Shown here in pieces: positions 6,795 to 29,284 of a DNA stretch of 64,000 bases. The first letter of the stretch is position 1. Each line of letters starts with the position of its first letter. Made by a program: the position numbers and the translations under genes. The notes under the pieces were generated by a model. That model saw only the letters and a program-made list of their open reading frames with translations, was not told the DNA's origin and did not search any database. The stretch spans positions 5,618 to 69,617 of the forward strand of contig JAFEGM010000032.1 of NCBI GenBank assembly GCA_018240025.1, written 5' to 3'. Source of the stretch: Verrucomicrobiota bacterium (GTDB taxonomy: Bacteria > Verrucomicrobiota > Verrucomicrobiia > Chthoniobacterales > SZAS-18).

Positions 6795-8032
6795 TTGGAA
6801 GGACGACGGGTGGGAGAGGGCGGAACGTCAGCGCTGGTGGCTGCCAGCAGACGGGCACGGGCGAGCTGCCGGTCACGCAGCGCTTCGAGCCGCTGGGCCT
6901 CGAGCTCGAAGCGCTTGCCGCGGGCGCGCAGCACCTCGACGAGCGAGGTCTGGCCGGAATTGAAGACGCTGTTGAGAAGCTCCTCGATCTTGCGGGCTGA
7001 AGGGATCAGGTCGGTCTCGAAGGCGTTGACGACACGGTTGGCCGCCGCCTCCTCTTGCTGCGCCGTGGTGATCTCGTTGGGAACACGGGCATTGAGCGCG
7101 TCGAGCTCCAAGGTCGTGCGTCGCAGGGCGGCATCCGCAGTCAGCACCCGGCCCAGGCCTTGGTTCCAAACGGGCAGGGGAATGCCGATTTTGAAGGAAA
7201 GGCCGCTTTGGCGATCGAGCCCAAAGGGGGCGTCTTCGGAGCGAGCGCGTTCGAGTCCAAAGCCCAAAGAAAAATCGCCCCACCGCTCTGCGCGCGCGAG
7301 CGCGGAACCTTGAGTGGCTGCTTCCACGCGGGCCGAGCCGGCCTGCAGGTCGCCTCGCTGGCGATAGTCACCATGGCGGCCGCTGGGCAGCGCCTCGAGC
7401 GAACCCGCGACCTGCAGCGGACTATTGCGGGCGAGCCCAAGCAAGATCCGAAGTTCGCCGCCGAGCGTGGCCGACTCGTAGTCCAGCCGGCCGGCTTCGG
7501 TCATCAACTGCCTGGCCTCCAGGTCTGTCTGGAGCGTATCGATTTGAGAGGCCTCGCCCAAGCTCAGGCGGCGCTGGGTAAAGGAGGCAAGTTCACGGCT
7601 GTTTTGGAGTTGGCGTTCGCGCAGCTCACGCAGCGACTGCAGCGCCAAAAGTCGGATCGCTGCCGTGCGCGCCTCGAGAGCCAAGCGCCGCGCTCCGTCG
7701 GCCACCTCTGCCTCGGCCGCGGCGAGTTCTGCGCGTGCCACCGCTCGTTCCAAGGGCAGCCGCGCCGTCAGAGGAAAGCGCTGCGTCAGCGCGACGTTGG
7801 CCGTGAATTCCCCCGTGCGCCGGGTGCGGCTGTACGAATACTCGAGCTCCGGATTGGCGAGGCGCCCGGCATTGACCACGCGTCCCCGCGCTTCTTCGAT
7901 CCGCCAGCGGGCCGCGCGCAGCGATGGGTTTTCGCGCAGCGTCTGCGCCACGATCTGGTCGACGCTGAGCGTCGCTGCAGAGGCGGAAGCGAGGGAAAAA
8001 AGGGAAAGGAAGAGAAGAGAGACGAGCCGCAT
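6791..8032 (-). CDS. TolC-family outer-membrane efflux factor
   Basis: 413-residue outer-membrane channel of the tripartite metal efflux system. The signal peptide is MRLVSLLFLSLFSLASASAA, followed by DQIVAQTLRENPSLRAARWRI, the typical start of the first OEP repeat. Long amphipathic helices rich in Ala, Glu, Arg and Leu, with the second repeat near PEITTAQQEEAAANRVVNAF-type sequence, fit the family and its length. It is the first pump gene of the operon and its TGA overlaps the ATG of the membrane fusion protein. The frame extends 60 bp upstream, but 8032 is chosen for the signal peptide. No strong Shine-Dalgarno is visible, as for most genes in this window. Confidence 0.93.
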   Translation of the reverse strand: MRLVSLLFLSLFSLASASAATLSVDQIVAQTLRENPSLRAARWRIEEARGRVVNAGRLANPELEYSYSRTRRTGEFTANVALTQRFPLTARLPLERAVARAELAAAEAEVADGARRLALEARTAAIRLLALQSLRELRERQLQNSRELASFTQRRLSLGEASQIDTLQTDLEARQLMTEAGRLDYESATLGGELRILLGLARNSPLQVAGSLEALPSGRHGDYRQRGDLQAGSARVEAATQGSALARAERWGDFSLGFGLERARSEDAPFGLDRQSGLSFKIGIPLPVWNQGLGRVLTADAALRRTTLELDALNARVPNEITTAQQEEAAANRVVNAFETDLIPSARKIEELLNSVFNSGQTSLVEVLRARGKRFELEAQRLEALRDRQLARARLLAATSADVPPSPTRRPSK

Positions 8033-10932: not shown

Positions 10933-11047
10933 TGAGAAGCTTCCGAGCCCCTGTTCGGTGGATCGAAGAAAATTGAATTCATTTTTGAGGGCAACTACAG
11001 CCCCTCGAAGTCGACCGGTTCGTCGCACCGCGTTACCCGCAGGTAGC

Positions 11048-11070
11048 GCGATTTTGAAAAGTGATACAGC
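11048..11070. promoter_or_regulatory. Possible left-end TnsB-type site
   Basis: GCGATTTTGAAAAGTGATACAGC resembles, in inverted orientation, the right-end repeat that reads GCGAAAGTTTCCAGATACTGC on the minus strand. The shared core is GCGA, a T-rich spacer and GATAC-GC. Only one site is seen, so this is weak. Confidence 0.25.
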
Positions 11071-11113
11071 TGAGCGAATTGGCCTATGCTTTGTCGCAAA
11101 GCTCTCACGCCCA

Positions 11114-11842
11114 ATGCCCGCGCGCCGCATCCGCCCCAGCCACACGAGTTTCACCGGCCAATACGCGATGAAGCGCGTCGGCGCTTCCGTGGAGTTCGAG
11201 TCCTTGATCGAGCGCAATTTCATCACGCTCATGGATTTCGATCGCGACGTGGTCGCGGTCGATGCCCAGCCGCTGACCATCGACTGGAAGGACGCGAGCG
11301 GGAAGGCGCATCGCTACGTGCCGGACTTCTTGGTCAATTTCTGCCACCCCTCCGAGCTCTACATCCCCTGGACCCCGACCAAGCTGAGGCCCTGGCTCGT
11401 GGAGGTGAAATCCAAGGAGATGCTGCAGAAGCGCTGGAGCGAATATCAGCCGAGGTTTCGGGCTGCAGCCAAGTTTGCCGCCGAGCGGAACATCCGTTTC
11501 CGCATCTTCCATGAAGGCCGCATTCCAAACATCCTTTTGCAAAACGCTCAGTGGCTGCTGCGATTCATGCACCTGCCGGTGGACTTGGCTCGGAAGACGG
11601 CGCTCATGGAGACGCTCGCTGGCGCCGATGAACTCACGGGCAATCAGCTCATCGCCGCGATCTGCAAGGATCCAATCAATCAGCGCATGCTCTTGCCGGA
11701 ACTCTGGCGCCTGATCGCCTGGCGCGTGATTTCCGTCGATTTGGCGAGTCCGGTCACCATGAATTCACCGCTTTGGATCGAACAGTGGAGCGCTGGCATC
11801 CCTTACGCCGAGGAGCAACCCGACGATGATGAACTCAACTGA
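11114..11842 (+). CDS. tnsA: TnsA-like transposon endonuclease
   Basis: 242 residues (Tn7 TnsA is 273). It makes the 5'-strand cuts at transposon ends and works with TnsB for cut-and-paste movement. The restriction-endonuclease fold residues are visible: FESLIER (E29), RYVPDFLV (D71) and LVEVKSK (E97, K99), followed by the C-terminal helical domain. The open frame extends 52 codons upstream of this ATG, but that part is low-complexity. The degenerate copy at 28658 begins matching at codon 8, consistent with a start here. Its TGA overlaps the tnsB start by 17 bp. Confidence 0.9.
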   Translation: MPARRIRPSHTSFTGQYAMKRVGASVEFESLIERNFITLMDFDRDVVAVDAQPLTIDWKDASGKAHRYVPDFLVNFCHPSELYIPWTPTKLRPWLVEVKSKEMLQKRWSEYQPRFRAAAKFAAERNIRFRIFHEGRIPNILLQNAQWLLRFMHLPVDLARKTALMETLAGADELTGNQLIAAICKDPINQRMLLPELWRLIAWRVISVDLASPVTMNSPLWIEQWSAGIPYAEEQPDDDELN

Positions 11843-13712
11843 GATTGACCTCTACCCGGGGGCCGTCGTGACGCACAAGGGGCGACGCTGCCGAATCAAG
11901 CTGGAGCTCGACCTACGCCAAGTGCTGTTGGAGCCGCTGGATGATCCTGGCGAGCCGTTCAGAGCTGACATTTGCGATCTGCGCCCCGGCGTGGAGACGC
12001 GCGCGGACGAGCAGAAGAGGGCAGAGGATGTTGCTTCATTCGCTGGCGAACCCCTCGCCATCGCCCAGGCGCGAATGGCGATCATTCTGCCGTTGTTAAA
12101 GGGCGGCCCCCGTTCGTTGGCCGAGATCGCCAAGGAACATAATGTTGATTGTTCCACCATCTATCGATGGCTTGCCACTTATCGAAAGAAGAGGCGGCTC
12201 TCCGCATTGATACCGCGCTACGCAGAGCGCGGACACCCAGGTGATCGTCGGCTCAACGCCGACACTGAGGCTGAGATCGAAACGACAATTAAGGATGTAT
12301 ATATGACGGCGGAAAGGCCGTCGATTTCAAAAACGGCGAAAACAGCGGCGGACGCCTGCAAGGCGAAGGGTTACCCGATACCCAGCCTGACGGCGGTGCG
12401 CGCCCGTATTCTAGCGAAGGACCCGAGACGATTGGCTGAGGCGCGCGACGGCGCCAATGCGGCCATGAAACTGGATTCTTCCGGCAAGTCGCTTCCCGGC
12501 GCTGAGCACCCTTGGGCGATCGTCATGATGGATCACACGCCGCTGGACCTCGCCATCGTCTCCCGGGACACGCGTCTGCCGATTGGCCGGGTCTACGTGA
12601 CGATTGCGGCTTGCGCCTACACCCGCATCTGCCTGGGCATCTACCTCTCACTCGATCCACCGAGCGCTAATTCGGTCGGCATGTGCCTGGCTCGCGCCAT
12701 GCTGCCCAAAGAGCAGTGGCTCGCCCACCTTGGCATTCCGGGTGATCTGCCGGTTTGGGGAAAGCCGGAAGTACTTTTGGTCGACAACGCAAAGGAGTTT
12801 CGAAGCAAAATGCTGCGGCGGGCCTGCGAGGAGTTTGGGATCACCCTGCAACATCGTCGCGTCCGGAAGCCCAAGGATGGCCAGCGTGTCGAGCGGATGT
12901 TCCTGACCATTGCGCACGAAGTCCATACCCTGCCGGGCACCACGTTCAGCAATTCTGAGGATCGCGGCGAATACGACTCCGAGAAGAACGCGGTCATGAC
13001 GCTCGACGAGCTCGAGCGCTACCTGGTCGATTGGATCGTGAACATCTATCACCAGACGCCGCATGCCGGCCTCAATGGCCGTCGCCCGATCGACGTTTGG
13101 AACGACGAGTCGCTGCGCTTCTCACGCGAGACCGGACTCGGGCTGCCTCCCCGCCCGGTCGACGAGCACGCCATTCGTCTCAGCCTACTGCCCATGGAGT
13201 TGCGGACCGTGCAGTGGTACGGCGTGTCCTGGGATGGCATCCAATATTGGAGCGAAGATATTCGGCGCTGGATCGACGCGCGCGAGCCAGACAGCCGGAA
13301 GCGTCGGCGGAAGTTCATCGTCCGGCGTGACCCGGACCGGATCGATCGGATCTACTTCTATGATCCCAAACTCAAGAAGCATGTCGAAGCCCCCTACAGG
13401 GACGCGACCAGGCCGCCGATCAGTCTTTGGGAGCTAAGGGTGGTGCAGCGGCACCTGCACGCGCAGAACAAGAAGAGGGTCGATGAAGCTGCGCTTTTTG
13501 CTGCACGCGAGCGGTTGCGAGCCAGTGTTGTCCAAGCGACCGAGGAGACCAAGCGCACGCGTCGGGAACGGGAGCAGGAAGAACGGCGTCGTGAGCAAGC
13601 CGAGCGGCGAGCGAAAGGCAAGCCCACCCCGCCGCCAAAAGCCCGGCAACTCGACAACCAAAAACCCGAGGGACAAGTGGACTATGAACCGTTTGATGAC
13701 GTAGAAAACTGA
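11826..13712 (+). CDS. tnsB: TnsB-like DDE transposase
   Basis: 628 residues. It binds transposon ends and joins 3' ends to target DNA (Mu/TnsB/retroviral integrase family). A helix-turn-helix near 98-120 (LAEIAKEHNVDCSTIYRW) and a second DNA-binding segment precede the catalytic core. DDE residues are D236 (MMDHTP), D320 (LLVDNAKEF) and E356 (GQRVERMF). The Mu-type beta barrel follows, then a charged coiled-coil-like stretch and an acidic tail ending DYEPFDDVEN. The tail is what TnsB homologues use to contact TnsC; the same role is inferred here. It starts at tandem ATG codons (11826, 11829) inside the end of tnsA and stops just before tnsC. Confidence 0.95.
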   Translation: MMNSTEIDLYPGAVVTHKGRRCRIKLELDLRQVLLEPLDDPGEPFRADICDLRPGVETRADEQKRAEDVASFAGEPLAIAQARMAIILPLLKGGPRSLAEIAKEHNVDCSTIYRWLATYRKKRRLSALIPRYAERGHPGDRRLNADTEAEIETTIKDVYMTAERPSISKTAKTAADACKAKGYPIPSLTAVRARILAKDPRRLAEARDGANAAMKLDSSGKSLPGAEHPWAIVMMDHTPLDLAIVSRDTRLPIGRVYVTIAACAYTRICLGIYLSLDPPSANSVGMCLARAMLPKEQWLAHLGIPGDLPVWGKPEVLLVDNAKEFRSKMLRRACEEFGITLQHRRVRKPKDGQRVERMFLTIAHEVHTLPGTTFSNSEDRGEYDSEKNAVMTLDELERYLVDWIVNIYHQTPHAGLNGRRPIDVWNDESLRFSRETGLGLPPRPVDEHAIRLSLLPMELRTVQWYGVSWDGIQYWSEDIRRWIDAREPDSRKRRRKFIVRRDPDRIDRIYFYDPKLKKHVEAPYRDATRPPISLWELRVVQRHLHAQNKKRVDEAALFAARERLRASVVQATEETKRTRREREQEERRREQAERRAKGKPTPPPKARQLDNQKPEGQVDYEPFDDVEN

Positions 13713-13713
13713 T

Positions 13714-14577
13714 ATGGATCACTTAAACGAACAAGCGATTCGAGACCTCGATCTCCCGATGGCTGACCGAGTCAACAAGATCAATTCGCAAATCTGGATC
13801 GGCTATCCGCGCGCGCAGCAGATCAACGCCCGGCTCGAGGATCTTTTGGTTCATCCGCAGGTAGCACGCATGCCCTGCATGCTGCTCTACGGCGACTCCA
13901 ATGTCGGCAAGACCCGTCTCATCCGCCACTTCGCGGTGAAGAAGGTTCGATCCACCGATGAGGACGAGACCCCGACCTTGCCTGTCTTCATGACGCTCGC
14001 GCCTTCCAAGCCTGACGAGCACGAGCTTTACTGCGAATGTTTGCGTCAGCTCAACAGTCCGCACCGGCCCAGTGCCAGCGCCGGCGCTTTGCGCGACCAG
14101 CTCTGCTCTTTGCTCAAGGATTTGCAGACCCGGATGTTCGTCATCGACGAGATCCACAACATGGTCGCGGGCGCTCCCGTCAAGCAGCGCATCTTCCTGG
14201 CCGCACTAAAATCGATGAGCAACAAGCTGCAGATCCCGATTGTGGCCGTCGGTACGACTGACGCTTTCAACGCATTCTCGATCGACTCGCAGATTTCGAG
14301 CCGCTTCGAGCCCGTGGCTTTGCCACGCTGGACCGATGGCGTCGATTTCCGACGCCTGCTGGCCACGTTCGTCAAAGCCACCCCGCTGCGCGAGCGCTCC
14401 CTGCTGTCCTCCGATGACGTGGCGGCGAAGCTCCTTAAGATGAGCGAGGGTCTGCTCGGAGAATTGGCTGAAGTCATTCGGCGATCGGCGATCGCCGAGA
14501 TCAAGGCGGGCCGTGAGTGTATCACGATGGAGACCCTCACGGGACTCGACTGGACTCCACCCAGCGAGCGCAGATAG
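13714..14577 (+). CDS. tnsC: TnsC/TniB-like AAA+ ATPase
   Basis: 287 residues. This is the ATP-dependent regulator that links target selection to the transposase. Walker A is GDSNVGKT (60-67), Walker B MFVIDE (141-146) and sensor-1 VAVGTTDAF, all in the expected order for TniB/TnsC ATPases. It is close in size to TniB and shorter than Tn7 TnsC (555), so it is the compact type. The ATG follows the tnsB stop after one base and precedes tniQ by 20 bp, making a tight operon. Confidence 0.93.
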   Translation: MDHLNEQAIRDLDLPMADRVNKINSQIWIGYPRAQQINARLEDLLVHPQVARMPCMLLYGDSNVGKTRLIRHFAVKKVRSTDEDETPTLPVFMTLAPSKPDEHELYCECLRQLNSPHRPSASAGALRDQLCSLLKDLQTRMFVIDEIHNMVAGAPVKQRIFLAALKSMSNKLQIPIVAVGTTDAFNAFSIDSQISSRFEPVALPRWTDGVDFRRLLATFVKATPLRERSLLSSDDVAAKLLKMSEGLLGELAEVIRRSAIAEIKAGRECITMETLTGLDWTPPSERR

Positions 14578-14597
14578 ACTGACGCGCATCGTTCTCG

Positions 14598-16103
14598 ATG
14601 CGACGCCGCCTGCCGATCCCCCTCAAGCCATACCCCGAGGAACTGATCTCCTCATGGATACTTCGGCTGGCGGACGCCCATCATGTCGGTCCTCGGACGT
14701 TCGGGCGGCACGTGCTCGGGCGGACCTTCGAGTTCAATCGCGACTGGGACAGCGAGCCTGGAGCAGAAATGATTCGCGCCTTGGCTCAGGCGACCGGGCA
14801 CGAAGAAGGCGTGCTACGGCAGGGGCACTCGCTGTTGGCTTGGGAAGGCCTGCTCTTCGACAGCGCCTCGGCGACTCATTCAACGCGTTGGGTCCTGCCG
14901 CGGGGAATTATCGGCGCACGTCGGCCGCATCAGCAATTCTGCCCGCTCTGCCTAATGGACGCGCCGTTTTACCGCCGGCATTGGCGGCTTTCGCTCTTTG
15001 CCGTCTGCCCGACTCACCGCGTGCAGCTCTGCGTCTCGTGTCCGCAGTGTTCTTCGGCCCTCGAATTCCTTCGGTGCGCCGCCGCCCTGGGACCACGCTC
15101 GCTGCATAGGTGCTACAGCTGCGGCTTTGATCTGCGGTGCACCGAACCGCTGGAAGCGCCCGAGCGCGACGTCCGCATCGCTCGTGAGCTCGGAGGAATT
15201 CTCTGCGGTGAGATCACTGCTCGACCCCTCGAGTTGGGAGCCAGGGAGTTCTTCTTCACGCTGTCGCAACTCAGTGCGCGGCTGCTCAGCCGCGGCAGAA
15301 AGATGCAGCTGTGGCGGCGTCTCGTTTCGCAGCTGGCTGGCTGCATCGTGCCGCAGGCCTGCTCGTTTCGAGCGCCAGTGAACATGGACGCGATGTATCC
15401 CCCGATCGGAAGAATGGCGATCTTGCGCGGCGCGATGTGGCTCCTGGGTGACTGGCCCAATCGATTTTACCTCATGCTCAAGGGCGGAGGTATCGACTTC
15501 AGTGACGTCTTTCCTCAGCCCTTTCTCTACGCGCCGGCGGTGGTTGCAGCCTCGCGGTGGCCGGCTGGGCCGCCGGCGCAGCGCGAGACATCGGCCGGTC
15601 GAAAATGGATTGCGCGACTCAACGAATTCCTCCTCTCCCGACGTGTAGACTGGTCCCCATCAAAGATGCCAAGGCTGCTACGACGGCTGCGGGCAGCCGG
15701 CTTCTTCGCACCGCGAACAGCCCCCAGCCAAATCGAGCGCTCGATCCGGCGACGCATCGAGGCGTTGAGGCACGCTGGTCGCGACTACCGCAACGCGAAC
15801 GTCCGCAAGGCCGAGCGAAGCGGCGAGGAATGGAGCCGGCTGCTGCTGCGTGCGAGACCATATCGGAAGATTCACTGCACGTCGGCCGAGATTCTGCGAC
15901 GAGGTATTCGCCTGCTCTGTGCTGATCGCTTTTTGAGCGCGCAGGACCTGGGCGCCTTGCTTCATCGCAGCCCCGAGGCGCTTCGCGCCGCGCACCTCAG
16001 TCCTATGCTGGCGTTAGGCCAACTGGAGGTGCTTCACGCGAAGCGAAATCGCGAAGGCTACCAAGCGCACCCCCAGCAAGCCTATCGGAGCGCGCCGACT
16101 TGA
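14598..16103 (+). CDS. tniQ: TniQ/TnsD-like target-site selector
   Basis: 501 residues, the size of TnsD/TniQ proteins that recognise a fixed attachment site. The N-terminal TniQ motif is PEELISSWILRLAD. Two zinc-binding clusters follow: CPLC (115-118) with CPTH (137-140), and CPQC (148-151) with CYSC (172-175). The C-terminal half is Arg-rich and helical, fitting DNA binding, with helix-turn-helix-like pieces near 455-475. Because the element family sits in comM (see 29058-29284), the simplest inference is that this protein targets comM, but the direct neighbour of this copy's right end is a tnsA fragment, not comM. Confidence 0.9.
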   Translation: MRRRLPIPLKPYPEELISSWILRLADAHHVGPRTFGRHVLGRTFEFNRDWDSEPGAEMIRALAQATGHEEGVLRQGHSLLAWEGLLFDSASATHSTRWVLPRGIIGARRPHQQFCPLCLMDAPFYRRHWRLSLFAVCPTHRVQLCVSCPQCSSALEFLRCAAALGPRSLHRCYSCGFDLRCTEPLEAPERDVRIARELGGILCGEITARPLELGAREFFFTLSQLSARLLSRGRKMQLWRRLVSQLAGCIVPQACSFRAPVNMDAMYPPIGRMAILRGAMWLLGDWPNRFYLMLKGGGIDFSDVFPQPFLYAPAVVAASRWPAGPPAQRETSAGRKWIARLNEFLLSRRVDWSPSKMPRLLRRLRAAGFFAPRTAPSQIERSIRRRIEALRHAGRDYRNANVRKAERSGEEWSRLLLRARPYRKIHCTSAEILRRGIRLLCADRFLSAQDLGALLHRSPEALRAAHLSPMLALGQLEVLHAKRNREGYQAHPQQAYRSAPT

Positions 16104-17972: not shown

Positions 17973-19715
17973 ATGCGTTTCCCTGGCGGTAAGAACCAAG
18001 TCGTCAAGCGTCTGATCAATCTGGTTCCGCCCCATGATCGATACGTGGAGGCATTCTTGGGCAGCGGGCCCATTCTCCGTCGCAAGGTGCTTGCGAAGGA
18101 GGACATTGGTATCGATATGTCGGACGCCGTCATCCAAGCGTTTGGAGTGCGTGCGGGCGTCCGACTAGTCTGCGGAGACGCCCTGGAGGTTCTGCCCACG
18201 CTTGGACTGCAGGAGCGTGATCTGGTCTACTGCGACCCACCCTATCTGCGCGCGACTCGCCGCTCTAAACGACGCCTTTACAAATACGATCTGGGAGAAG
18301 CCGGGCATGAGGCCCTGATCGACCTCGTGCGGTCGCTGCGGTGCCAGGTCATGATTTCTGGCTATCCCAGCGCGCTGTATGCGAGCGCGCTCGCCGATTG
18401 GCGGCAACTGCAATTTGGTGGCACCTCACATCGCGGCCGCACCGTGGAATGTGTTTGGTTGAATTTTGAGCCCGGGTTGCTGCACGACCCCTCGGTTCTT
18501 GGCGAGGATTGGTCGACCCGGCTAGCCTTCCGCCGGCGGCGGCAGCGCTGGTGCGAGCGCTTCGAATCCCTGGGTTTGCCGTTTCAGCAGTCGATCCTGC
18601 TGGCGCTTTCGCACTCGTTTCACAAGCGGCTGACTCCAGCGCAGCGCTCCACGTTCGCGCTGCAGCTTCCTCTCAAAGAAGAGATCTCCCATGTGCGTCC
18701 CGATCATCGGGCACCTGCGGTCGCCCGAGCGAAACGGAACACCTCTGTAGTTCGGCCGACGGTCATCGATCTCTTCGCCGGCGCCGGATTTTTCGGGCAC
18801 GCTTTCGCCGCAGAAGGATTTCGTGTCGAAACCTCGTTTGAGGCGGACGCAGCAGCGTCTGAAGTCAATGCGCTCAATTCCCGCGCGGAAGTCCGGCTCT
18901 GCGATCTACGGGACGTGCGCCCCTTCGGACGGGCAGACGTCATCATCGCAGGACCTCCCTGCCAAGGTTTCTCCTCGTTGGGGCCGCGCCTGAAGCGCGA
19001 TCCTCGCAACAACCTCTGCCTGCTCGTGCCCAAATGGGCTGAGGTAGTCCGGCCAAAGCTCGTGGTCGTCGAAAATGTCCCCCAATTCTTGCTGAGCGAA
19101 CCCTGGAAAATCATGGCCAGCGAGTTCCGCACCTTGGGATTCGAATGTGCTCATTGGGTCCTGAACGCCAAGCACTACGGAGTGGCTCAGAATCGCAAAC
19201 GCTCGATTACCGTGTTTGCGCGGGGACTACTGCCGGACATTTCGGCTGAGCCGAAGGAACTCGGCCGAACAGTCCGCGACGCCTTTGCGGGCTTGCCGGG
19301 CTTTCCCGACCGCTCCGCGTTTCATTTCACTTTGCCTCAGTCGGAAGCCACATTGCGACGAATCAGGCTTGTGCCGGCCGGCGGTGATCTGCGCGACGTG
19401 TTCGCTATCGATCCTGAGCTGACTCCTCCCTCATGGCGGAGAGCCAAGGACAAGGTCGGTGCAATCTGGGGCCGATTGCCGTGGGACGGCCATAGCAACA
19501 CCATCCGCACGGGGTTCATTCACCCTTCCCGCGGCAGGTTTCTTCATCCGGAGGAAGATCGTCCCATTTCATTCCGTGAGGCGGCCCGGCTGCAAAGCGT
19601 TCCGGACGAGTTCCAGTTTCAAGGCTTTGCCGAGCACGTTGCCCGGCACATCGGAAACGGTGTTCCCATTGGTCTCGGGCGCATGATCGCCCGAGCGGTG
19701 GCGGCCGCCCTTTAG
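17973..19715 (+). CDS. Fused adenine-N6 (D12 class) and cytosine-C5 DNA methyltransferase
   Basis: 580 residues with two complete-looking methyltransferase domains. The N-terminal domain (about 1-240) is D12/Dam class: FPGGK (3-7), EAFLGSG as the AdoMet motif (26-32) and catalytic DPPY (88-91). The C-terminal domain (about 262-580) is a C5-cytosine enzyme: DLFAGAGFFG (266-275), GPPCQGFS with nucleophile C330, ENV (367-369), QNRKR (406-410) and HIGNGVPIGLG near the end. The target-recognition region of the C5 half is short (about 410-520). It should methylate both A and C, presumably in one or two sites. It ends 11 bp from the convergent GHKL gene. Both halves have all key residues, so this is a functional fusion, not a frameshift artefact. 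Confidence 0.92.
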   Translation: MRFPGGKNQVVKRLINLVPPHDRYVEAFLGSGPILRRKVLAKEDIGIDMSDAVIQAFGVRAGVRLVCGDALEVLPTLGLQERDLVYCDPPYLRATRRSKRRLYKYDLGEAGHEALIDLVRSLRCQVMISGYPSALYASALADWRQLQFGGTSHRGRTVECVWLNFEPGLLHDPSVLGEDWSTRLAFRRRRQRWCERFESLGLPFQQSILLALSHSFHKRLTPAQRSTFALQLPLKEEISHVRPDHRAPAVARAKRNTSVVRPTVIDLFAGAGFFGHAFAAEGFRVETSFEADAAASEVNALNSRAEVRLCDLRDVRPFGRADVIIAGPPCQGFSSLGPRLKRDPRNNLCLLVPKWAEVVRPKLVVVENVPQFLLSEPWKIMASEFRTLGFECAHWVLNAKHYGVAQNRKRSITVFARGLLPDISAEPKELGRTVRDAFAGLPGFPDRSAFHFTLPQSEATLRRIRLVPAGGDLRDVFAIDPELTPPSWRRAKDKVGAIWGRLPWDGHSNTIRTGFIHPSRGRFLHPEEDRPISFREAARLQSVPDEFQFQGFAEHVARHIGNGVPIGLGRMIARAVAAAL

Positions 19716-19726
19716 GGTCGCGTGAC

Positions 19727-22024
19727 CTACGGCGCACCGGCCGAAGCGCCGCCCGCGCGGCGATAAACTTCCAGCAGTTCGCGGTGAGCAGCCCTGGTCC
19801 GATCGAGAACCTCCAAAATATCCAATACCTGCCAAGGAGTGGTCGGATGCATATCTTCGGCAATCCTACGCTTAAGACGAACAACTTTCTCGCCCTGTTT
19901 GGTCAGCTCTTTTGAACCGACCAGGATTCCCTCGACGCGGAAGCCCTCGCCCACGTTGAGTTTGAGCCACTCGCGCGCATCTCCCATGTAATCGGTGAGT
20001 TGGTCCAAATGATCGGAGTCGAGCGGAAGATTCGGGGCCTTGAACTCGATGATGACAAATCGCTTCAGCGAACCGTTGCCGATCAGAAATGTCAGGTCGG
20101 GACGCTTGGCCTGATCCATCGTGGCAGGGGCATGGACGTCGATCTCGAGGTGTTTGGCCAGGCGGCCGGACAATTCCTTCTCCGTGACTTCCGAACTCAA
20201 GAATTCGAAAAACGTCGGATCCAACAACCACGCGTTGTTCTTGAAGAGTGAGTGCAACGGTTTTTCATTTTTTGGCGCCCTGAAATCCACTTGGTCGGCA
20301 ATCTTGGCGAGCGCCTCGATGGCCTTCAGGCGCCCGTGGACGATGGAGAGGAAGTCATCGAACTCGAGTTTCGTCAGGCGTGTGATCTCAGCGATTACCG
20401 ATGGCAGATCCGGCGTATCTGCTTTGGCCAGCTCGTAGAGCGACGAGATGATCTGGCCGCTGCCAAGACCGCTGATGACATTAGGAAGAACGGACTGATA
20501 AAATTCACTATCCAGCACGTTGGGGTCTTTGCCCGCCAGCACCTTGGCGATCTGCCACGCGGTTTTTTCCCGATGCTTGGGCAGGTGCCCGGAATTGATT
20601 GCGTCCTGGGTGAACTGGTGATTTTTGAGTTCGTCCTCGAGTTTTTCGGCTAGAAGATCGGCATACCTTCCCACCGCGCGCGACATCTCGTCGGTCAAGA
20701 ATTGCCGCAGCCGGCTCAGCAGTGGAGTCTCCCAGCGTAGCGTCTGCCGATCCGTCGAGATGTAGTCCGTGGACAGTTCATCGAGAAAGTCCGCGACGAC
20801 GACGCCTTCCAGGTAGCTCGTGTATTTGAAGCCATGGGTGTTCGTGCTGAGGTCGAGCAAATCGGGCACCGAGGCCAAGCGGTGATGGGCATACACCCGC
20901 ACGCCGCGCTGCTTGGCCGGCAGCTGACCCTTCTCTCCGCGAAAACGAAAACGGTAGCTGAATGGGATCGAGGGGAGGAATTCGTTGCCCTCGATCGTGT
21001 GCGTGACCAACTCGTCGACTCCCACACCTTCCACCGGAGGATGGGCATAGGCGTAGTTGCCTTTCATGGTCTCGACGGCGACCACGTCGATCGAGGTGTT
21101 GATCGTGATCTTGAAGTCTTTGGGCGAGATTCCGAAAAAATTCTCGGCTAGCGAGTGCGATAGATTGTGCACAACGCTACCTTTCACGCCCTCGTAGACC
21201 AGCCTGTTGAGAATGATCCGGGTGCCGCGGGTGGCAATGCCTCCACCGTCCTCCAGACGCTCGGCGACCACCGGGACGCTGTGATCTACGGAAATCGGCG
21301 TGTCGCTGCCTGCAGCAGGTTCGTTCGGGGTGATCTCGGGTGCCGATGCACCGGGCGATGCCGCTTCAGCGTTTGACGCAGCTGATGGGGCTGATGGTGC
21401 CGCGGGCTTGCCGGCTGTGGAGGCGGGCGAAGGGGACGCCAAGAGTTTGTCCAGATCCAGCACGATCCGGGTCGCATGAGACTCGCCAGCCACCCGCGTG
21501 ATGACCTCGATCCGTCTGGCGATGCCGAAACCTGCCAGCTTTCCCAACCCTTTCCGTCCCATGATGGGTCTGGCCTTTTCCGCTGTGCGAACCTTCTCTT
21601 GGCCCTTGCGCCGCCTCCGGCCGACGACGAGGAACTTGTCTTGGAGATCGTCGCGGCTCATCCCGCTTCCCGTGTCGTGGACCTCGACCGTGATCGAATC
21701 GGGGAGTGCGCGCTCATCGAGCGGTTTGATCGCTTCGAGCCGGGCCATCGCCTTGTCGTATTCCGCGGTGTTGCCGACACGCTTGGCGGCCTCGGCCGCT
21801 TGCGCGGCGTCCTTTTTCTCTCGCCTAAAATTGGTTTTTTCGTGTTCTAGCGCTTGGTCGATCGCGTTCTGATTGAACTTGATCTCCACGCTGTCCGCAT
21901 CGGCGTCATAGGCGTTGGCGACAAACTCCACCAGGGCCTTCGCGACGGAGGTGTAGAGGTTGACCCCCAGATCCTCGAGCACGTGAGGAGCGAAGGTGAA
22001 GTTCAAAGTGTCGGGTCTGTCCAT
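19727..22024 (-). CDS. GHKL-type ATPase with C-terminal nuclease-like domain (cargo)
   Basis: 765 residues from the chosen ATG. The N-terminal GHKL ATPase shows ALVEFVANAYDADAD (N box), HDTGSGMSRDDL (G1) and GRKGLGKLAGFGIA (G2), interrupted by a charged insertion after the N box and an Ala/Pro-rich linker near 210-260. The middle is helical. The C-terminal domain reads LHSLFKNNAWLLDP ... RPDLTFLIGNG ... FVIIEFKAPN, a PD-(D/E)XK-type nuclease pattern (PD ... EFK) resembling the DUF4263/Shedu C-domain; that match is by eye. GHKL proteins related to MutL/MORC are known beside restriction-modification genes, and this one converges on a methyltransferase. Longer starts exist at 22078 (ATG) and 22105 (TTG). 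Confidence 0.85.
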   Translation of the reverse strand: MDRPDTLNFTFAPHVLEDLGVNLYTSVAKALVEFVANAYDADADSVEIKFNQNAIDQALEHEKTNFRREKKDAAQAAEAAKRVGNTAEYDKAMARLEAIKPLDERALPDSITVEVHDTGSGMSRDDLQDKFLVVGRRRRKGQEKVRTAEKARPIMGRKGLGKLAGFGIARRIEVITRVAGESHATRIVLDLDKLLASPSPASTAGKPAAPSAPSAASNAEAASPGASAPEITPNEPAAGSDTPISVDHSVPVVAERLEDGGGIATRGTRIILNRLVYEGVKGSVVHNLSHSLAENFFGISPKDFKITINTSIDVVAVETMKGNYAYAHPPVEGVGVDELVTHTIEGNEFLPSIPFSYRFRFRGEKGQLPAKQRGVRVYAHHRLASVPDLLDLSTNTHGFKYTSYLEGVVVADFLDELSTDYISTDRQTLRWETPLLSRLRQFLTDEMSRAVGRYADLLAEKLEDELKNHQFTQDAINSGHLPKHREKTAWQIAKVLAGKDPNVLDSEFYQSVLPNVISGLGSGQIISSLYELAKADTPDLPSVIAEITRLTKLEFDDFLSIVHGRLKAIEALAKIADQVDFRAPKNEKPLHSLFKNNAWLLDPTFFEFLSSEVTEKELSGRLAKHLEIDVHAPATMDQAKRPDLTFLIGNGSLKRFVIIEFKAPNLPLDSDHLDQLTDYMGDAREWLKLNVGEGFRVEGILVGSKELTKQGEKVVRLKRRIAEDMHPTTPWQVLDILEVLDRTRAAHRELLEVYRRAGGASAGAP

Positions 22025-22206
22025 GGAGGGATGCCAGTATCGGGTAACCTCAGACGCGCCCACGAGAGGGACGGACATCGGCGCGCTGTCCAAGCGACCG
22101 ATCAATCGTACCGCCGGACGGGCTTCTTTAGGCAGGGCTGGAGGCGCTGGAAAGCCTTTTCTTGCGGGGCACAGACCGCAGAACCTCAGGGTCTATCGAT
22201 GATATT

Positions 22207-23022
22207 CTACGATCTAACACGATACTTGATTCGGTATTCATCGAAGGTGGAGTAGTTCTTGATGCCCTTGCTCTTGTTGATGCTTCCAAGTTGAGTGCGA
22301 TCAATTCGCTCCTGCAGCATCTCGCAGAGCTCCGCGAAGTGCTCGATGTTGATGAGTTCCCATTTGTCGACTCCGAACCTCTTCTCGATGTTCACGTAAA
22401 TCACCGAGTGTTTGAATCCCACGCGCCCTCGCTGCTTGGGGGCGAATGAATTGTAGCGCTTAATCAGGTGCTTGATGTAGTTGCGCTCGGCCAAGTGGCT
22501 TCCAATAGCCTGCGCAGGCGCTTCGACCGGCCTCCGCCCTTTGCTCGGTGCGGCATTGTGAATGGTCGCGTGGGCTGCTTCTAAACGGCCGATGTAGATC
22601 TGGCTAGCCTGGAGGTAGATGTCCCGATAGCTAATCAACAGGTTCGTGATGTTCTTTCCGTCCTGGACCGAGAGATCGTTTCTGGCCGGCTCTTGATGCG
22701 CCTGCTTCATCTCCCGGAGACGCTCGACGGTGTAAAGCTTCGGCTCTGAATCGATTACCTTGCTGTGCCTTCCACAGAGGAGGATGAGGTTGTCGAAGTC
22801 GTGGCGTTGTTCGTCGGTCTGCTTTGAATCGTAACGTGGGCCGCCCTTGCTGCGAGCGCAGATGTGACAGATGATGCCCGTGACCGTACCGGTTAGCTCA
22901 ACGATCGGCAGGTCACAGGCAGGAAATGCACAACGGTTGTGTGAGACCGCATACAGTCTTTTTACCGTGGTGCGAGAGGGTTCCGAGGGCTGAGTGGCAG
23001 CGCCTGCTTTAGGTGTGGGCAT
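22207..23022 (-). CDS. HNH endonuclease family protein (cargo)
   Basis: 271 residues. The N-terminal HNH/zinc domain has RCAFPAC (C31, C36), ICHICARSKGG (H53, C55), HDFDNLILLC (N78, C83) and GRHSKVID (H86), giving the His-Asn-His set plus zinc ligands. The remaining 180 residues are helical and basic with no recognised motif, perhaps a target or partner domain. DNA here is clearly more AT-rich than the surroundings, a sign of separate origin. It is transcribed towards the GHKL gene (about 180-bp gap) and is divergent from the gene pair at 23114 (91 bp). A restriction or defence role is inferred. Confidence 0.85.
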   Translation of the reverse strand: MPTPKAGAATQPSEPSRTTVKRLYAVSHNRCAFPACDLPIVELTGTVTGIICHICARSKGGPRYDSKQTDEQRHDFDNLILLCGRHSKVIDSEPKLYTVERLREMKQAHQEPARNDLSVQDGKNITNLLISYRDIYLQASQIYIGRLEAAHATIHNAAPSKGRRPVEAPAQAIGSHLAERNYIKHLIKRYNSFAPKQRGRVGFKHSVIYVNIEKRFGVDKWELINIEHFAELCEMLQERIDRTQLGSINKSKGIKNYSTFDEYRIKYRVRS

Positions 23023-23113: not shown

Positions 23114-24415
23114 ATGGCCGACTCTCCTCTGACACCGTCGCTTCTAGCCGCACGCTGCGCTGAAATTCAGGAATGTTCGACTAACGTCGAGGTCGGGGAG
23201 TTCGAACGCATCCCAGAGATTGGCATGGCGCTGAGGATGGCCTTGCACATCCAAGGCTGTCCGGCGGTAGATTTTGAAAGCTTGAAGCTGGTTTCCATCT
23301 ACCTGCTCAAGTTCCCGCGCTTGGTCGTAGAACGGATTGTGCGGCTACTGGCCGAGGTTGAATTCGTTCGCCTGCAGACTGAGGGCCAGACCATCAAGAC
23401 GGTCGTTCCGACGGTACCTTATTACAACCAGATCTACTCGGACCTCGGAGCGTACGCAGCGGACCGCAAGTTCACCGAAGTCGAGCAACTAGCGCTCGCC
23501 ATGACCGAGCGTTTGGCGAAGAGTCCCGAAGAAAAGGAAAGGCTATTTGCTGCGCTGGGCGGGGAGCGCGCGGCGCTGGAAGGCTTGGTGGAAATCGGTA
23601 AGCAAGGGGGCTTCCTCTGGCAAGAGCGTGCGCGGGGCAGGGTCATCCTAGGCAACCCGTCCTATTTTTCCGAGAACTGGGACGTGTTTGCCGACCATGT
23701 TGCGGGTCTCGGTTCTGCCAGCGTCGGTCGTGTGCTGGATCTAGTCCGCAGATACCAAGGTTGGCCACTCGCGCTCATCGAGAGGGATTTGAAGATCGGC
23801 GACCGCGAGGTGAGCGCGGAAGACGCCAGACTCCTTCGTCAGCTGGCTGAATTTGGGGCGGTCAAACCACCCTGCATCCAGACCAAGCACGCCGGCGAGA
23901 ACCAGTTCATCTTCACGCCAGTGCCGTTCGGCGTGAAACTCAATCCGATCCGGCACGACATCTTCGAGCGGGCGCTGGCCATCGTTTCGGCAGTTCGTCA
24001 GGGCCAACTCTTGCCCGAAGCGTTTCGAATCCGCAGCCCATTAGCCGTTTTGAGCAAAATGCGCTCCCACAAGCGGCTGGGCAAAGCGACCCAGGAATTT
24101 ACCCAGCAATACCGCAAGCTCGTACACATGCGCATCGCCAAGCTTGTGCCTGCAGGGAACGACTATTTCGAGTTTCACTTGATCGACACGGAGACCAACA
24201 TCGAGGCGTTGAACATTGCTTACGATTTGGTTGCCACCGGCGAGAGCCAAACTTTGGGAGTGGACACGGACGCCATTAACGCCCTGCAGATGGACAGTCA
24301 GTATCTGGAATCGCGCATCAGCCGGGCTGAAATGGCCAGGAACAAGAACACCGTCCCGCTGTCGCGCGAGAACCAGGAGCTGGCTGACCAACTTCTGCTC
24401 AGGCTCGCCCCATGA
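23114..24415 (+). CDS. Unknown protein, first gene of a two-gene cargo unit
   Basis: 433 residues, no signal peptide or membrane helices. The N-terminal 130 residues look like a winged-helix arrangement (SIYLLKFPRLVVERIVRLLAE, then EFVRL and a beta pair), with a second similar stretch around residues 250-330. The C-terminus is helical and acidic. I recognise no family. Its stop overlaps the next ATG (ATGA, 24412-24415), so the two proteins are made together, probably as partners. Being in the cargo of a Tn7-like element, next to an HNH and a GHKL nuclease, a defence role is a reasonable guess only. Confidence 0.75.
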   Translation: MADSPLTPSLLAARCAEIQECSTNVEVGEFERIPEIGMALRMALHIQGCPAVDFESLKLVSIYLLKFPRLVVERIVRLLAEVEFVRLQTEGQTIKTVVPTVPYYNQIYSDLGAYAADRKFTEVEQLALAMTERLAKSPEEKERLFAALGGERAALEGLVEIGKQGGFLWQERARGRVILGNPSYFSENWDVFADHVAGLGSASVGRVLDLVRRYQGWPLALIERDLKIGDREVSAEDARLLRQLAEFGAVKPPCIQTKHAGENQFIFTPVPFGVKLNPIRHDIFERALAIVSAVRQGQLLPEAFRIRSPLAVLSKMRSHKRLGKATQEFTQQYRKLVHMRIAKLVPAGNDYFEFHLIDTETNIEALNIAYDLVATGESQTLGVDTDAINALQMDSQYLESRISRAEMARNKNTVPLSRENQELADQLLLRLAP

Positions 24416-25725
24416 AGGCCAAAGGAAAAAAAACACCGGCTCCGGCGCAGTCTCCGGGGATGCTCGATCGCGCCCAAAAACAAAAAGTTCTCCAATACTC
24501 CATCGCCCGACGGTGGTTGCCTCAGCTCGAACTCGATGTGGCACCCTTGGTGGCAACCGGTGAAGCGCAGACGCTCATCACCGATGTCGACGTCTTCGCC
24601 TCCGTGCCCGATGAATTCGAGGGCTACCGGCAGGTCCTTTTCGATTGCAAATCGGGTTCGCGTGAATCGGCGATCGGGCGCGCGCTCTGGCTGCGCGGCT
24701 TGATGCATCGCCTTGGAGCTGCCCGCGGCATTTGCATCCTCAAGGGAACGATCGGCATGGACCACCGGTTGGCGGCCGCGGGGTTCGACGTCACGCTCGT
24801 TCAAGAGGATGAGTTGGCCGCCTTCGCCACGGCCACCGGCGGTGCCGGCCCGGTCGACGGCAGCTATCTCGCCAAGCTCGAGAACTGGGATCGGCAAAAC
24901 GCTTTGGCTAAGCAAAGCGAGGCGATGGCCGATCTCGTCCTTTTTTCACGCGCTCGGTTTTGGGGGGCTGGTTCGGCCTCGCTGGCGAGTCGGCAGTGTA
25001 TCGCGCTGCTTCTGCGGCACCGGGGCGATCTCGATCCGGCGAAACCGCTGCACCTGGGAATTTTCGGCGACATTTGCGCGCTTTTCCTGCACGCACTCGC
25101 AAGGGTCGCCGTAAGCGTTTTCTACAGCTACATCCACCCTCGGACGCAGGAAGATTTGGCAGACAGCGTCCGTTATCTGCTCTACGGCGGCCGCGAGAAC
25201 TACAACCTGCTCAACTCGCTGCGCCAGCGGATTGCTCCCACGGCCGAAGGGACTTCCGAGGACTTGACCGTTCCGCAGTGGGACAAGTTCCTCAACCTGC
25301 TGCGGCAATCGCTCAACAGCCCCCGTGACGCACTGCGTAGCGCGCTTGTCGCCCGGGAGGTGGCCTGGAGCTATTTCGACGCTGGAAGGGCTCAGCCGCT
25401 GACCTTTGCGGCGGAACTGGCCAAGGAAGCGCCGCATGCCGCCAAGATCTGCCTTCTGGCTGCGGAATACCTGAGTCGGGCGGCTCGGTTGTCTCCGGAG
25501 TTTGGGAAGACTTTCTCGGAAGCCTTCGTCGCACTGGTTCCAGCTGTGGGGGCGCTACCCGCGGCCGTTTCGCTGCCTGCAGCGGTCGTCGCTGCAGCTG
25601 CACCGGCCCATGAAGCAGCTGCTGTTGCCGATCCCAATCCGTCAGCCGCTGCGCTGGTTGCGCCGCCGCCTGAGACTCCTGGGGAGGGTCCGAAAGAACC
25701 CGTGCTGCCCGGCTTTGGGACTTAG
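24412..25725 (+). CDS. PD-(D/E)XK nuclease-like protein, second gene of the two-gene unit
   Basis: 437 residues. The N-terminal domain carries TDVDVFA (D58, D60) followed after about 17 residues by VLFDCKSG (D78, K80), the D...DxK spacing of restriction-endonuclease folds, and then GRALWLRGLMHRLGAARGICIL, a helix-strand as in that fold. The middle (about 150-340) is helical. The C-terminal 60 residues are Ala/Pro-rich and look disordered, ending EPVLPGFGT. It overlaps the upstream gene by 4 bp. The nuclease call rests on motif spacing alone. No known defence system with this pair comes to mind. Confidence 0.75.
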   Translation: MKAKGKKTPAPAQSPGMLDRAQKQKVLQYSIARRWLPQLELDVAPLVATGEAQTLITDVDVFASVPDEFEGYRQVLFDCKSGSRESAIGRALWLRGLMHRLGAARGICILKGTIGMDHRLAAAGFDVTLVQEDELAAFATATGGAGPVDGSYLAKLENWDRQNALAKQSEAMADLVLFSRARFWGAGSASLASRQCIALLLRHRGDLDPAKPLHLGIFGDICALFLHALARVAVSVFYSYIHPRTQEDLADSVRYLLYGGRENYNLLNSLRQRIAPTAEGTSEDLTVPQWDKFLNLLRQSLNSPRDALRSALVAREVAWSYFDAGRAQPLTFAAELAKEAPHAAKICLLAAEYLSRAARLSPEFGKTFSEAFVALVPAVGALPAAVSLPAAVVAAAAPAHEAAAVADPNPSAAALVAPPPETPGEGPKEPVLPGFGT

Positions 25726-26394: not shown

Positions 26395-26889
26395 ATGAAT
26401 CTTCCCGAAACGGACTCGCTAGCCGCCAAGGTGCGACTCGCAGAAGAGTTTCTGGATCCGCTTCTTCACGTCGAGGGGTTCATCGGCAAGACGCCCGTGG
26501 GCGTTGCGACCGGGGTTTATTTCGCGGCCGAGCGCTCGATGCTGCTCAGCGACCTGCAGGTCTACGACTTCTCGCAGAAGCCATGGACGCTTCGGCGCTT
26601 CTTCGATCTGGGCAGCCGCCGGAGGCTGCGTGGCTTCGGGATCGGCTCCCGGTTGCTCGACAGGTTCCTCGAAATGGCCAAGCAGCTGGGCGTGATCGCG
26701 GTTCATGGGTCGGTGACACATGGCGACCTCTTGAAGACTCCCCGGCTCATCGAATTCTACGCCAACCGTGGCTTTCGGAGGCTGCCAGCCGGGCCCGATG
26801 AACTTCTCGGCGCCATCTGCCGGGTCGAGTGGAACCTGGGGAGCGCACTCAGCCAGCCGCTTCCGGCGGCTGCTGCAGCAGCTGTTTGA
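26395..26889 (+). CDS. GNAT-family acetyltransferase-like protein (cargo)
   Basis: 164 residues. The acetyl-CoA motif A is RRRLRGFGIGSRLLDRFL (R-x-x-G-x-G/A form), preceded by a beta strand (MLLSDLQVYDF) and followed by VIAVHGSV and EFYANRGFRRL, the motif B strand-helix. The substrate is unknown. The gene ends inside the 3' end of the convergent TnsE-like gene (41-bp overlap), so it is the innermost cargo gene at the right side. A role as toxin or modifier is possible but unsupported. Confidence 0.75.
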   Translation: MNLPETDSLAAKVRLAEEFLDPLLHVEGFIGKTPVGVATGVYFAAERSMLLSDLQVYDFSQKPWTLRRFFDLGSRRRLRGFGIGSRLLDRFLEMAKQLGVIAVHGSVTHGDLLKTPRLIEFYANRGFRRLPAGPDELLGAICRVEWNLGSALSQPLPAAAAAAV

Positions 26890-28573
26890 AGGCCCGCTCG
26901 AGCTTCAGTGCGTGAATTCGGACCGCCTTGAATTGCGGATCCGCCTGCAGAGGCTTGAACAGGTGGCGAACGGTCCGGATCTTCCAGCGTTTGCCGCCGG
27001 CGGCGCCGACAATCTGAGCGCGGAATCCAGCCTCCTGCAGCAGTTGGACCAATTCGCCAGTCGCTGCGCCCGCATCGACGCGCAGAGCGGCGATGGATGC
27101 GGTGCGCGCACGCACGAGTTTCTTGGGATGTTTGACCTCGCAGACGAAACCCAGCACCTCACCTCGTTGCACTTGGGCGACCAACACCGTTGGGAGATCG
27201 GCGTCATCAGATTCCTGCGGGCGGGAAAGTTCGCCCAGATAGCCGCAATCGGGGCGCGAGACTTGGAATCCAAGCGTTCCCAATTCGGCCAGGACTCCGA
27301 CGAAAAACGTGAACCCCTCCATGTTGCCGATCGTCGTCAGTTCGTCGTCCAATCCTTGCGGGAGGGTGAACTGCAGTTTGAGCGGAGGGACTGCGTCCAT
27401 TCCGCTCGACGCAGCTCCGATACCAACTTGGTCTTGCAGCGAGACATCCGGCCTGGGCCTTGCAGGCGGTTCGGCATTCGCCCGCGGGCGTCGCTTCGGC
27501 CACTCGATTTCAAGGCCGGGCAGCAGCTCCGTCGCCCCAGGAAGACGCCATTCCGTCGGCAACTGCCATTTGCGAGGCGGCTGATCACCCAGCCTGGCCC
27601 CGGTGTTGGAGGTTGACCCGAAGAGCGGCGGATTTCGTCCGCTGCGCAGGTGCTCGATGTAATCGTAGATCGACTCAGGGCTGGCCCCGGGGTTTTCTCG
27701 CTCGAGTTCGAGGCGCCTGAGTCCCTCAGGCTGGTAGTCGCACGAATCGATGGCTTGGACGAGGAAGCGGTCGGCCTCCATTTGTCCGCGGCACTTGATC
27801 GTGCAGGGCCGGCTAAACGGCAGCCGCACCTTGAGGTGCGACTCGGTTTTCCCGGCTGGAGCTTCGATATTTGTCGCTCCGGCTTGCCGGCTTACTGACC
27901 GTTCGATCTCCATCGCGGCCTCGCGGGCCTTTTTCTCGAGGAACCACCAGACTAATGGCCGACACCCTTCGCTATCGACCCACTTGCTCAAACAGAGTCT
28001 GAGCACCCCATCCTTGAACTCCGAGCGACGAGGACCAAATAGCTCGTTTTCAAGCCAAAACCTCCTGGCCCAGGGAAGCCCGTCGATTCTCGAAAACAAC
28101 GCCATCAGGACCTCAGGCGACGGCGCGTACAGCGATGTCAGCAGGGTCGGGCACGCGGCGACCACCTGCACCGGCTTGCCGTCAAGAATGCCTTCAACCG
28201 TTGAGAACCACCCACCGCGGTAAACTTCCTTGGGAAGCAGATGGTGCCGCAAAAGGAGCCGGCTGATTCCCTTGTCGTCAGCCCTGACGATCTTCGAGCT
28301 GCCGGTAAGGGTGATGGTTCTCTGGTTGCTTAGGTGTCTTTGCCCGCGGTATTCGCCCTCAACCCAGAGGGAACCTATGCGGAATGCTCCCAGGGCGGCT
28401 ACGGGAACGCTGATCTTCTCGAATCTCGTGGCAAGAAAACCTGCCGGCGACGTCAGGAATACCTCAATCAGATGGTCTGTGGAGTTGTCGCGAAGCTTCA
28501 GGCAACCGATCGCGCTCACCATCAAGTGGCCCTGGGGGACCGGACGCCCGTTGAGAATGTGCGCGAGCTTCAT
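26849..28573 (-). CDS. TnsE-like transposition protein at the right transposon end
   Basis: 574 residues (Tn7 TnsE is 538). The C-terminal 150 residues have a pattern like the TnsE C-domain: LVAQVQRGEVLGFVCEVKHP resembles the V-x-R-N-G-x-EFVLLEV strand pair of TnsE, followed by RARTASIAALRVD and two helices. The N-terminal region is beta-rich, the middle (about 300-390) Pro/Arg-rich and probably flexible. It starts 84 bp from the transposon terminus and reads inward; the relic element has the same start at the same distance, showing that this gene-end arrangement is a fixed part of the element. In Tn7, TnsE directs insertion to replicating DNA. The match is by eye, so family assignment is moderate. 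Confidence 0.6.
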   Translation of the reverse strand: MKLAHILNGRPVPQGHLMVSAIGCLKLRDNSTDHLIEVFLTSPAGFLATRFEKISVPVAALGAFRIGSLWVEGEYRGQRHLSNQRTITLTGSSKIVRADDKGISRLLLRHHLLPKEVYRGGWFSTVEGILDGKPVQVVAACPTLLTSLYAPSPEVLMALFSRIDGLPWARRFWLENELFGPRRSEFKDGVLRLCLSKWVDSEGCRPLVWWFLEKKAREAAMEIERSVSRQAGATNIEAPAGKTESHLKVRLPFSRPCTIKCRGQMEADRFLVQAIDSCDYQPEGLRRLELERENPGASPESIYDYIEHLRSGRNPPLFGSTSNTGARLGDQPPRKWQLPTEWRLPGATELLPGLEIEWPKRRPRANAEPPARPRPDVSLQDQVGIGAASSGMDAVPPLKLQFTLPQGLDDELTTIGNMEGFTFFVGVLAELGTLGFQVSRPDCGYLGELSRPQESDDADLPTVLVAQVQRGEVLGFVCEVKHPKKLVRARTASIAALRVDAGAATGELVQLLQEAGFRAQIVGAAGGKRWKIRTVRHLFKPLQADPQFKAVRIHALKLERAFKQLLQQPPEAAG

Positions 28574-28657
28574 AGCTCGCTTCCAGAGTGTTTCGCAGTA
28601 TCTAAAAACGATTCATGCAGTATCTGGAAACTTTCGCGCCTTCCAAGAGTTGTCGCA
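28574..28657. repeat. Transposon right end, copy 1 (intact element)
   Basis: 84 bp between the tnsE-like start and the terminus. Read from the outside on the minus strand it begins TGCGACAACTCTTGG and contains two similar sites, GAAAGTTTCCAGATACTGC and GTTTTTAGATACTGC, plus an outer pair TGCGACAACTCTTGG / TGCGAAACACTCTGG. These are candidate TnsB-binding sites. The same segment recurs 400 bp to the right with about 90% identity. Confidence 0.8.
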
Positions 28658-28889
28658 CCAGTCACACGAGTTTTACCGGCCAATACGCGATGAAGCGCGT
28701 CGGCGTGTCCGTGGAGTTCGAGTCGTTGATCGAGCGAAATTTCATCACGCTCATGGATTTCGACCGCGACGTGGTCGCGGTCGATGCGCAGCCGCTGACC
28801 ATTGATTGGAAGGACGCGAGCGGCAAGGCGCACCGCTACACCCCGGACTTCTTGGTCAATTTCTGCTATCCCACCGATCTCTACATCCC
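28658..28889 (+). pseudogene. tnsA fragment of a second, related Tn7-like element
   Basis: 232 bp matching tnsA at 11136-11367 in the same orientation, codons 8 to about 84. The encoded peptide is nearly the same (for example FESLIERNFITLMDFDRD is identical) but the DNA differs at many third positions, so it is a diverged relative, not a recent copy. It lacks a start and the C-terminal half including the ExK motif. Its left edge is exactly the terminus of the intact element. Confidence 0.85.
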
Positions 28890-28973
28890 GCGCAACTTTA
28901 CACAGCCGATCGCGCTCACCATCCAGTGGCCTCGGGGCACGGGGCGCCCGTCGAGAATGTGCGCGAGTTTCAT
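28890..28973 (-). pseudogene. tnsE-like 5' fragment of the second element
   Basis: First 28 codons of a second TnsE-like gene, starting at an ATG at 28971-28973. The peptide begins MKLAHILDGRPVPRGHW, against MKLAHILNGRPVPQGHL in the intact gene. It joins directly to the tnsA fragment, so everything between tnsA and tnsE of that element has been deleted. Confidence 0.8.
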
Positions 28974-29057
28974 GGCTCGCGTCCAGAGTGTTTCGCATTA
29001 TCTAAAAACGATCCTCGCAGTATCTGGAAACTTTCGCGTTTTCCAAGAGTTGTCGCA
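28974..29057. repeat. Transposon right end, copy 2 (relic element, next to comM)
   Basis: 84 bp matching copy 1 with a few substitutions and ending in the same TTGTCGCA. The next base is comM coding sequence, which fixes the insertion point of the older element in comM. Confidence 0.8.
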
Positions 29058-29284
29058 AGGTCGGCCGGCGCCAGGTTCACCAGGGTGTATCCATCCGGCC
29101 ACCGCAGGCCGGAGTTGCGGATCGCCGTCGTCACCCGGTCGCGGCTTTCGCGTACCGCCGCATCGGGCAGACCGACGACGACGATGCTATTCTTGTTCTC
29201 GTTGGAGGGGGCGTTATTGACCTCGACCTCGACCGAAACGGCCTCCACCCCCACGACAGCGGTCGAAAAGACACGCGCAAACAT
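29058..29284 (-). pseudogene. comM: comM (yifB) 5' fragment, interrupted by the Tn7-like element
   Basis: Codons 1 to about 75 of the Mg-chelatase-like ATPase ComM/YifB, which acts as a branch-migration helicase in natural transformation. The N-terminus MFARVFSTAVVGVEA, the motif IVVVGLPDAAVRESRDR and VNLAPADL are family hallmarks. The frame runs straight into the transposon end, and Walker motifs and the rest (about 430 residues) are absent from the window. comM is a recorded target of Tn7-like elements of the Tn6022/AbaR type. The N-terminal insert NNAPSNENKN is longer than in E. coli YifB. Confidence 0.85.

Follow-up and report, generated by a model that had tools for sequence, protein, structure and literature searches.

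Analysis of the window, i.e., the whole stretch of 64,000 nucleotides studied here from a Verrucomicrobiota bacterium, points to a two-gene, Type II-like restriction-modification (R-M) module carried by a Tn7-like element, in which a D12 adenine methylase domain has been captured and an adjacent HNH gene is an independent neighbor (probability of about 0.7). Three open frames make up the locus, in the arrangement that an earlier note on this DNA had described. The fused methylase gene (17973-19715, + strand, 580 aa) and the GHKL gene (19727-22105 or 19727-22024, - strand) are convergent, their stop codons being separated by exactly 11 bp (19716-19726), and the HNH gene (22207-23022, - strand, 271 aa) lies upstream of the GHKL gene on the same strand. 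The GHKL product would count 792 aa from a TTG codon or 765 aa from the ATG at 22024, and the latter start fits the homologues better than 22105. The HNH stop and this ATG are separated by 182 bp. A scan for promoters and terminators returned nothing above shuffled sequences.

The product of 19727-22024 (- strand) is a GHKL-S5 ATPase fused to a PD-(D/E)xK nuclease of the Shedu type, and a putative restriction enzyme, on the basis of the NCBIfam model NF050001, the phylogenetic tree and the AlphaFold2 and Foldseek results. Its ATPase domain (21425-22024) matches HATPase_c_3 in Pfam (E 7e-15), and the motif residues E33, N37, D40, D117xGxG121 and GRKGxGK162 are either invariant or conserved at 90% or more among 52 homologues. 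In the nuclease domain (aa ~584-735, 19820-20275), the residues E587, D643, E660 and K662 of the E-D-ExK motif are conserved at 90% or more in 52 sequences, and both sets of motifs are intact in the window protein. The PF14082 SduA_C model matches 17 of 20 homologous C-termini (best value 8e-6), the window copy itself giving 0.004, below the Pfam cut-off, while a profile of the nuclease domain found no match among PDB sequences. The AlphaFold2 model of the protein (pLDDT 84.6), a prediction that the earlier note had proposed, consists of a GHKL-S5 body and a separate nuclease domain, whose order of helices and strands fits PD-(D/E)xK. Whole-chain Foldseek matches, which are dominated by the ATPase half, were to Hsp90/TRAP1 and MORC2/MORC3 over ~500 aligned columns with modest TM-scores (0.3-0.5), and the alignment of the model includes an S5-like second domain as in MORC and Hsp90. 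The MORC-related ATPase and the nuclease domain similar to DUF4263 (Shedu), both read earlier from the sequence, were thus borne out.

This core is of a known kind. The paraMORC3 proteins combine an N-terminal GHKL domain, an S5-like domain and a C-terminal RE-fold with E-D-ExK, and their gene neighborhoods contain cytosine methylases and Vsr nucleases (Iyer, Abhiman, Aravind 2008, PMC2292703); the same architecture is now called Shedu type I-D (PMC12137116). The window protein shares all these domains and has a cytosine methylase as neighbor. Its locus differs in the D12 adenine methylase fused to that cytosine methylase, in the absence of a Vsr gene and in the adjoining HNH gene. Likewise, VcSduA of Shedu type I-D joins a GHKL ATPase and a DUF4263 PD-(D/E)xK nuclease in one chain, and it restricts phage in a manner requiring both the ATPase and the nuclease residues (PMC12137116). 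Unlike the methylase-free VcSduA, the window nuclease gene is faced by a C5 methylase gene. The pair further resembles BbrUII/HgiDII in combining the GHKL-nuclease architecture with an m5C methylase partner, here convergent at 11 bp; M.HgiDII and M.BbrUII are m5C methyltransferases, the former acting at GTCGAC (PMC5867850). Indeed, NF050001, the BbrUII/HgiDII model, matches all 52 aligned homologues. The window protein scores 217 bits (E 4e-64), far below the cut-off of 550, so that it is no more than related to the validated restriction enzymes. The tree pairs it with its closest relative (L091, 53% identity; support 99/98). Both fall in an 11-member clade (100/99), itself part of a 33-member clade (100/100) separate from the bona fide BbrUII type. 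The GTCGAC site shows no clear avoidance in the window, occurring 31 times against 36.8 expected, which says little in a methylated host. The view of the earlier note that no named system has this composition does not hold for the two-gene core: it matches a described kind of R-M system, the GHKL nuclease being covered by paraMORC3, Shedu type I-D/VcSduA and BbrUII/HgiDII, and pairing with a C5 methylase is the norm.

This norm is illustrated by the neighborhoods of the relatives. Each of the 32 same-clade loci with enough flank has a C5 methylase no more than 1.5 kb from the GHKL gene, and in 20 of them the two are convergent as in the window. Methylase and nuclease genes are thus linked across lineages, as is expected of a Type II R-M system. 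A Vsr gene occurs in 14 of these loci. The closest relative mentioned above is a bare convergent two-gene pair with 4 bp between the stops. At more distant GHKL loci, a C5 gene was found nearby in 27 of 47. All these counts are approximate: search score decided which loci were grouped as close and middle or as far, near-duplicates account for a few of the loci, and C5 genes were detected by single-sequence searches. The clade spans alpha-, beta- and other proteobacteria, planctomycetes, and Verrucomicrobiota and their kin, and its firm tie to a dedicated C5 methylase is relevant to the question of whether Shedu type I-D nucleases act as restriction enzymes that discriminate by methylation or as sensors. 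The GHKL protein could be a stand-alone, VcSduA-like Shedu sensor nuclease to which the adjoining methylase is incidental. VcSduA defends alone, with no methylase (PMC12137116), standalone paraMORC3 genes were noted as early as 2008 (PMC2292703), and some of the distant homologues have no C5 gene nearby. Given the unbroken linkage within the window protein's own clade, such a reading is nonetheless unlikely.

The methylase partner carries two complete domains in a single frame, and its earlier description as a fused methyltransferase was correct. The D12-class (Dam-like) N6-adenine methylase domain (aa 1-~215, 17973-18617, + strand) shows the FPGGK, EAFLGSGP and DPPY motifs and matches PF02086 (E 7e-11), while the C5-cytosine methylase domain (aa 262-580, 18756-19715, + strand) shows the FxGxG, GPPCQGFS, ENV, QNRKR and GNGVP motifs and matches PF00145 (E 2e-43). 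The D12 half resembles standalone enzymes of ~230 aa from plasmids, phages and chromosomes; it shares 35-43% identity with four such plasmid and chromosomal methylases, with invariant catalytic residues. The C5 half is 41-53% identical to the C5 methyltransferases that adjoin GHKL relatives, including the target-recognition stretch, which is conserved with relatives lacking a D12 domain. The C5 half alone could also start from an in-frame GTG at 18694, behind AAGAAGAG. That the fusion might be a recurrent, known architecture was considered and rejected, since none of the collections searched contained a fused relative: the fusion was absent from 72,556 plasmid records (no place covering at least 80% of the query), from 50,697 phage records, from 286 class and 241 phylum genomes, which are overlapping samples, and from 70 viral loci. 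The two types occur as neighboring genes, D12 followed by C5, in a few viral contigs (L188, L206). From these comparisons, the fusion is a small new variant, unlike all relatives searched.

Some Type IIS sites, such as those of Alw26I, Eco31I and Esp3I, are protected by a combination of m6A and m5C methylases. The fusion could similarly protect an asymmetric site, each domain modifying one strand, and the two motif-intact domains in one frame are consistent with this, as are the tandem genes of the viral contigs. Nevertheless, none of the 32 same-clade neighborhoods contains a D12 gene, and the conserved target-recognition stretch of these D12-free relatives points to a symmetric site protected by the C5 domain alone, making a Type IIS-like arrangement improbable. 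A bolder and quite improbable proposal is that of an evolved two-base modification, in which one chain would write both m6A and m5C and the GHKL nuclease would check for both marks or for an asymmetric site. In this proposal, the HNH protein would act as a recruited, non-catalytic DNA-binding partner.

The HNH protein consists of an HNH domain (aa ~16-113) and a helical C-terminal domain, as seen from PADLOC, PDB and alignment results. PADLOC models of CBASS-effector-type HNH proteins match it (best PDC-M68A, E 7e-28), and Cap5 HNH in the PDB matches it by both sequence and fold; these matches fall on the HNH portion (mostly aa 15-168). Unlike Cap5 (CBASS HNH-SAVED) and PDC-M68A, whose HNH domain it shares, the protein ends in a small helical domain rather than SAVED and lacks the third His of the motif. 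The possibility of a Cap5-like CBASS effector was rejected owing to the absence of SAVED after the HNH domain. While H53 and N78 are kept, the third motif His is replaced by Ser87, so that the H-N-H triad is incomplete; a His is found at this position in 12 of 13 aligned family members and in most Cap5-type HNH sequences. Because this His is missing from one solved relative (8ysq) too, the inactivity of the window protein is not certain.

The earlier note had regarded the locus as a possible restriction-type cassette in which three effector-type genes surround one bifunctional modifier. The restriction-type module stands with two genes, and the HNH gene finds no support as a conserved third component, a role rejected because the same family was found in only 1 of 32 same-clade loci and is solo elsewhere. 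Its members usually adjoin catalase-like, conjugation-type or other unrelated genes (identities assigned by eye), and the three genes were not found together elsewhere as a contiguous cassette, whereas the C5-GHKL pair recurs. A three-part system, with HNH and GHKL nucleases as two effectors (nick and cut, or sensor and cutter) served by one bifunctional methylase, would fit the position of the HNH gene directly upstream of GHKL. This position, on the same strand, also means that the two could be co-transcribed, which counts against the two-gene explanation. So does the one same-clade locus with a same-family HNH gene (G238/L047), ~3 kb from a GHKL-C5-Vsr cluster; there, an integrase-like gene intervenes. 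According to a rough class-sample estimate, this proximity is above chance, and clustering of defense genes explains it equally well. A further point in favor of a three-part system is another locus (G205/L082), in which an HNH gene of a different family (7130-7879, - strand) starts 13 bp past the GHKL stop, directly downstream on the same strand, with a divergent C5 methylase. Taken with the solo occurrence of the family, its single case among the relatives, the 182 bp gap and Ser87, a three-part system has a low likelihood, and the window HNH protein is probably a neighbor rather than part of the pair and may be inactive.

Besides, within L047 (7841-15097) the HNH gene and the Vsr-C5-GHKL cluster each have integrase-like genes, similar to one another, as neighbors, which gives the impression of two cargo units carried by integrases, and its GHKL protein also occurs on an IMG/VR contig (L171). 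On a Halorussus plasmid (L008, 5989-7761), a C5 methylase gene converges on, and overlaps, an HNH endonuclease gene, which represents a different two-gene pair.

Under the preferred two-gene explanation, the C5 half of the 580-aa protein would methylate cytosine within a sequence motif of the host DNA, and the GHKL-S5/Shedu-type nuclease, probably acting as an ATP-clamped dimer on DNA, would cleave DNA without the mark in an ATP-dependent manner, giving the module a presumed role in defense. The D12 half would be a captured adenine methylase of the phage or plasmid type adding a second mark, and it is probably dispensable for basic protection because all relatives have, next to their GHKL gene, a C5 enzyme of the same kind without D12. 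The HNH gene would stand apart from these activities. Since VcSduA works without a methylase, the window nuclease might instead sense something other than methylation. In this regard, the D12-C5 fusion offers a natural test of the mark read by the nuclease.

A Tn7-like element carries the cassette as cargo; its tnsA, tnsB, tnsC (tniB) and tniQ genes were identified by Pfam at 10958-16103 (+ strand). GC3 is 0.67-0.72 in the cassette and the tns genes versus 0.85 in the flanking host-type genes. R-M modules are common cargo of such elements (PMC8649781), and other GHKL-C5 pairs adjoin transposition genes as well (L006, L113, L121). The window holds the first 76 codons of comM (29057-29284, - strand), the gene being cut where the 169-nt end repeat of the element stops. 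Its remaining part is found as two pieces on another contig (C99:5158-5799 and C99:60107-60763), the latter beside a second Tn7-like tns set (TnsB 44% identical); hence comM appears to have been interrupted twice. At 28489-29057, two copies of the 169-nt repeat (87%) flank a 92% copy of part of tnsA (11132-11367), an arrangement that resembles a second, deleted element copy. A 574-aa protein (26849-28573, - strand) had no match in Pfam, NCBIfam, PADLOC, PHROGs or PDB; it is perhaps TnsE-like, as a 25% homologue adjoins tniQ in the second element (L182). Finally, a two-gene unit encoding proteins of 433 and 437 aa (23114-25725, + strand) is divergent from the HNH gene; the 437-aa protein was found in 2 of the 235 other genomes of the class and contains, by eye, a possible PD-(D/E)xK-like stretch.
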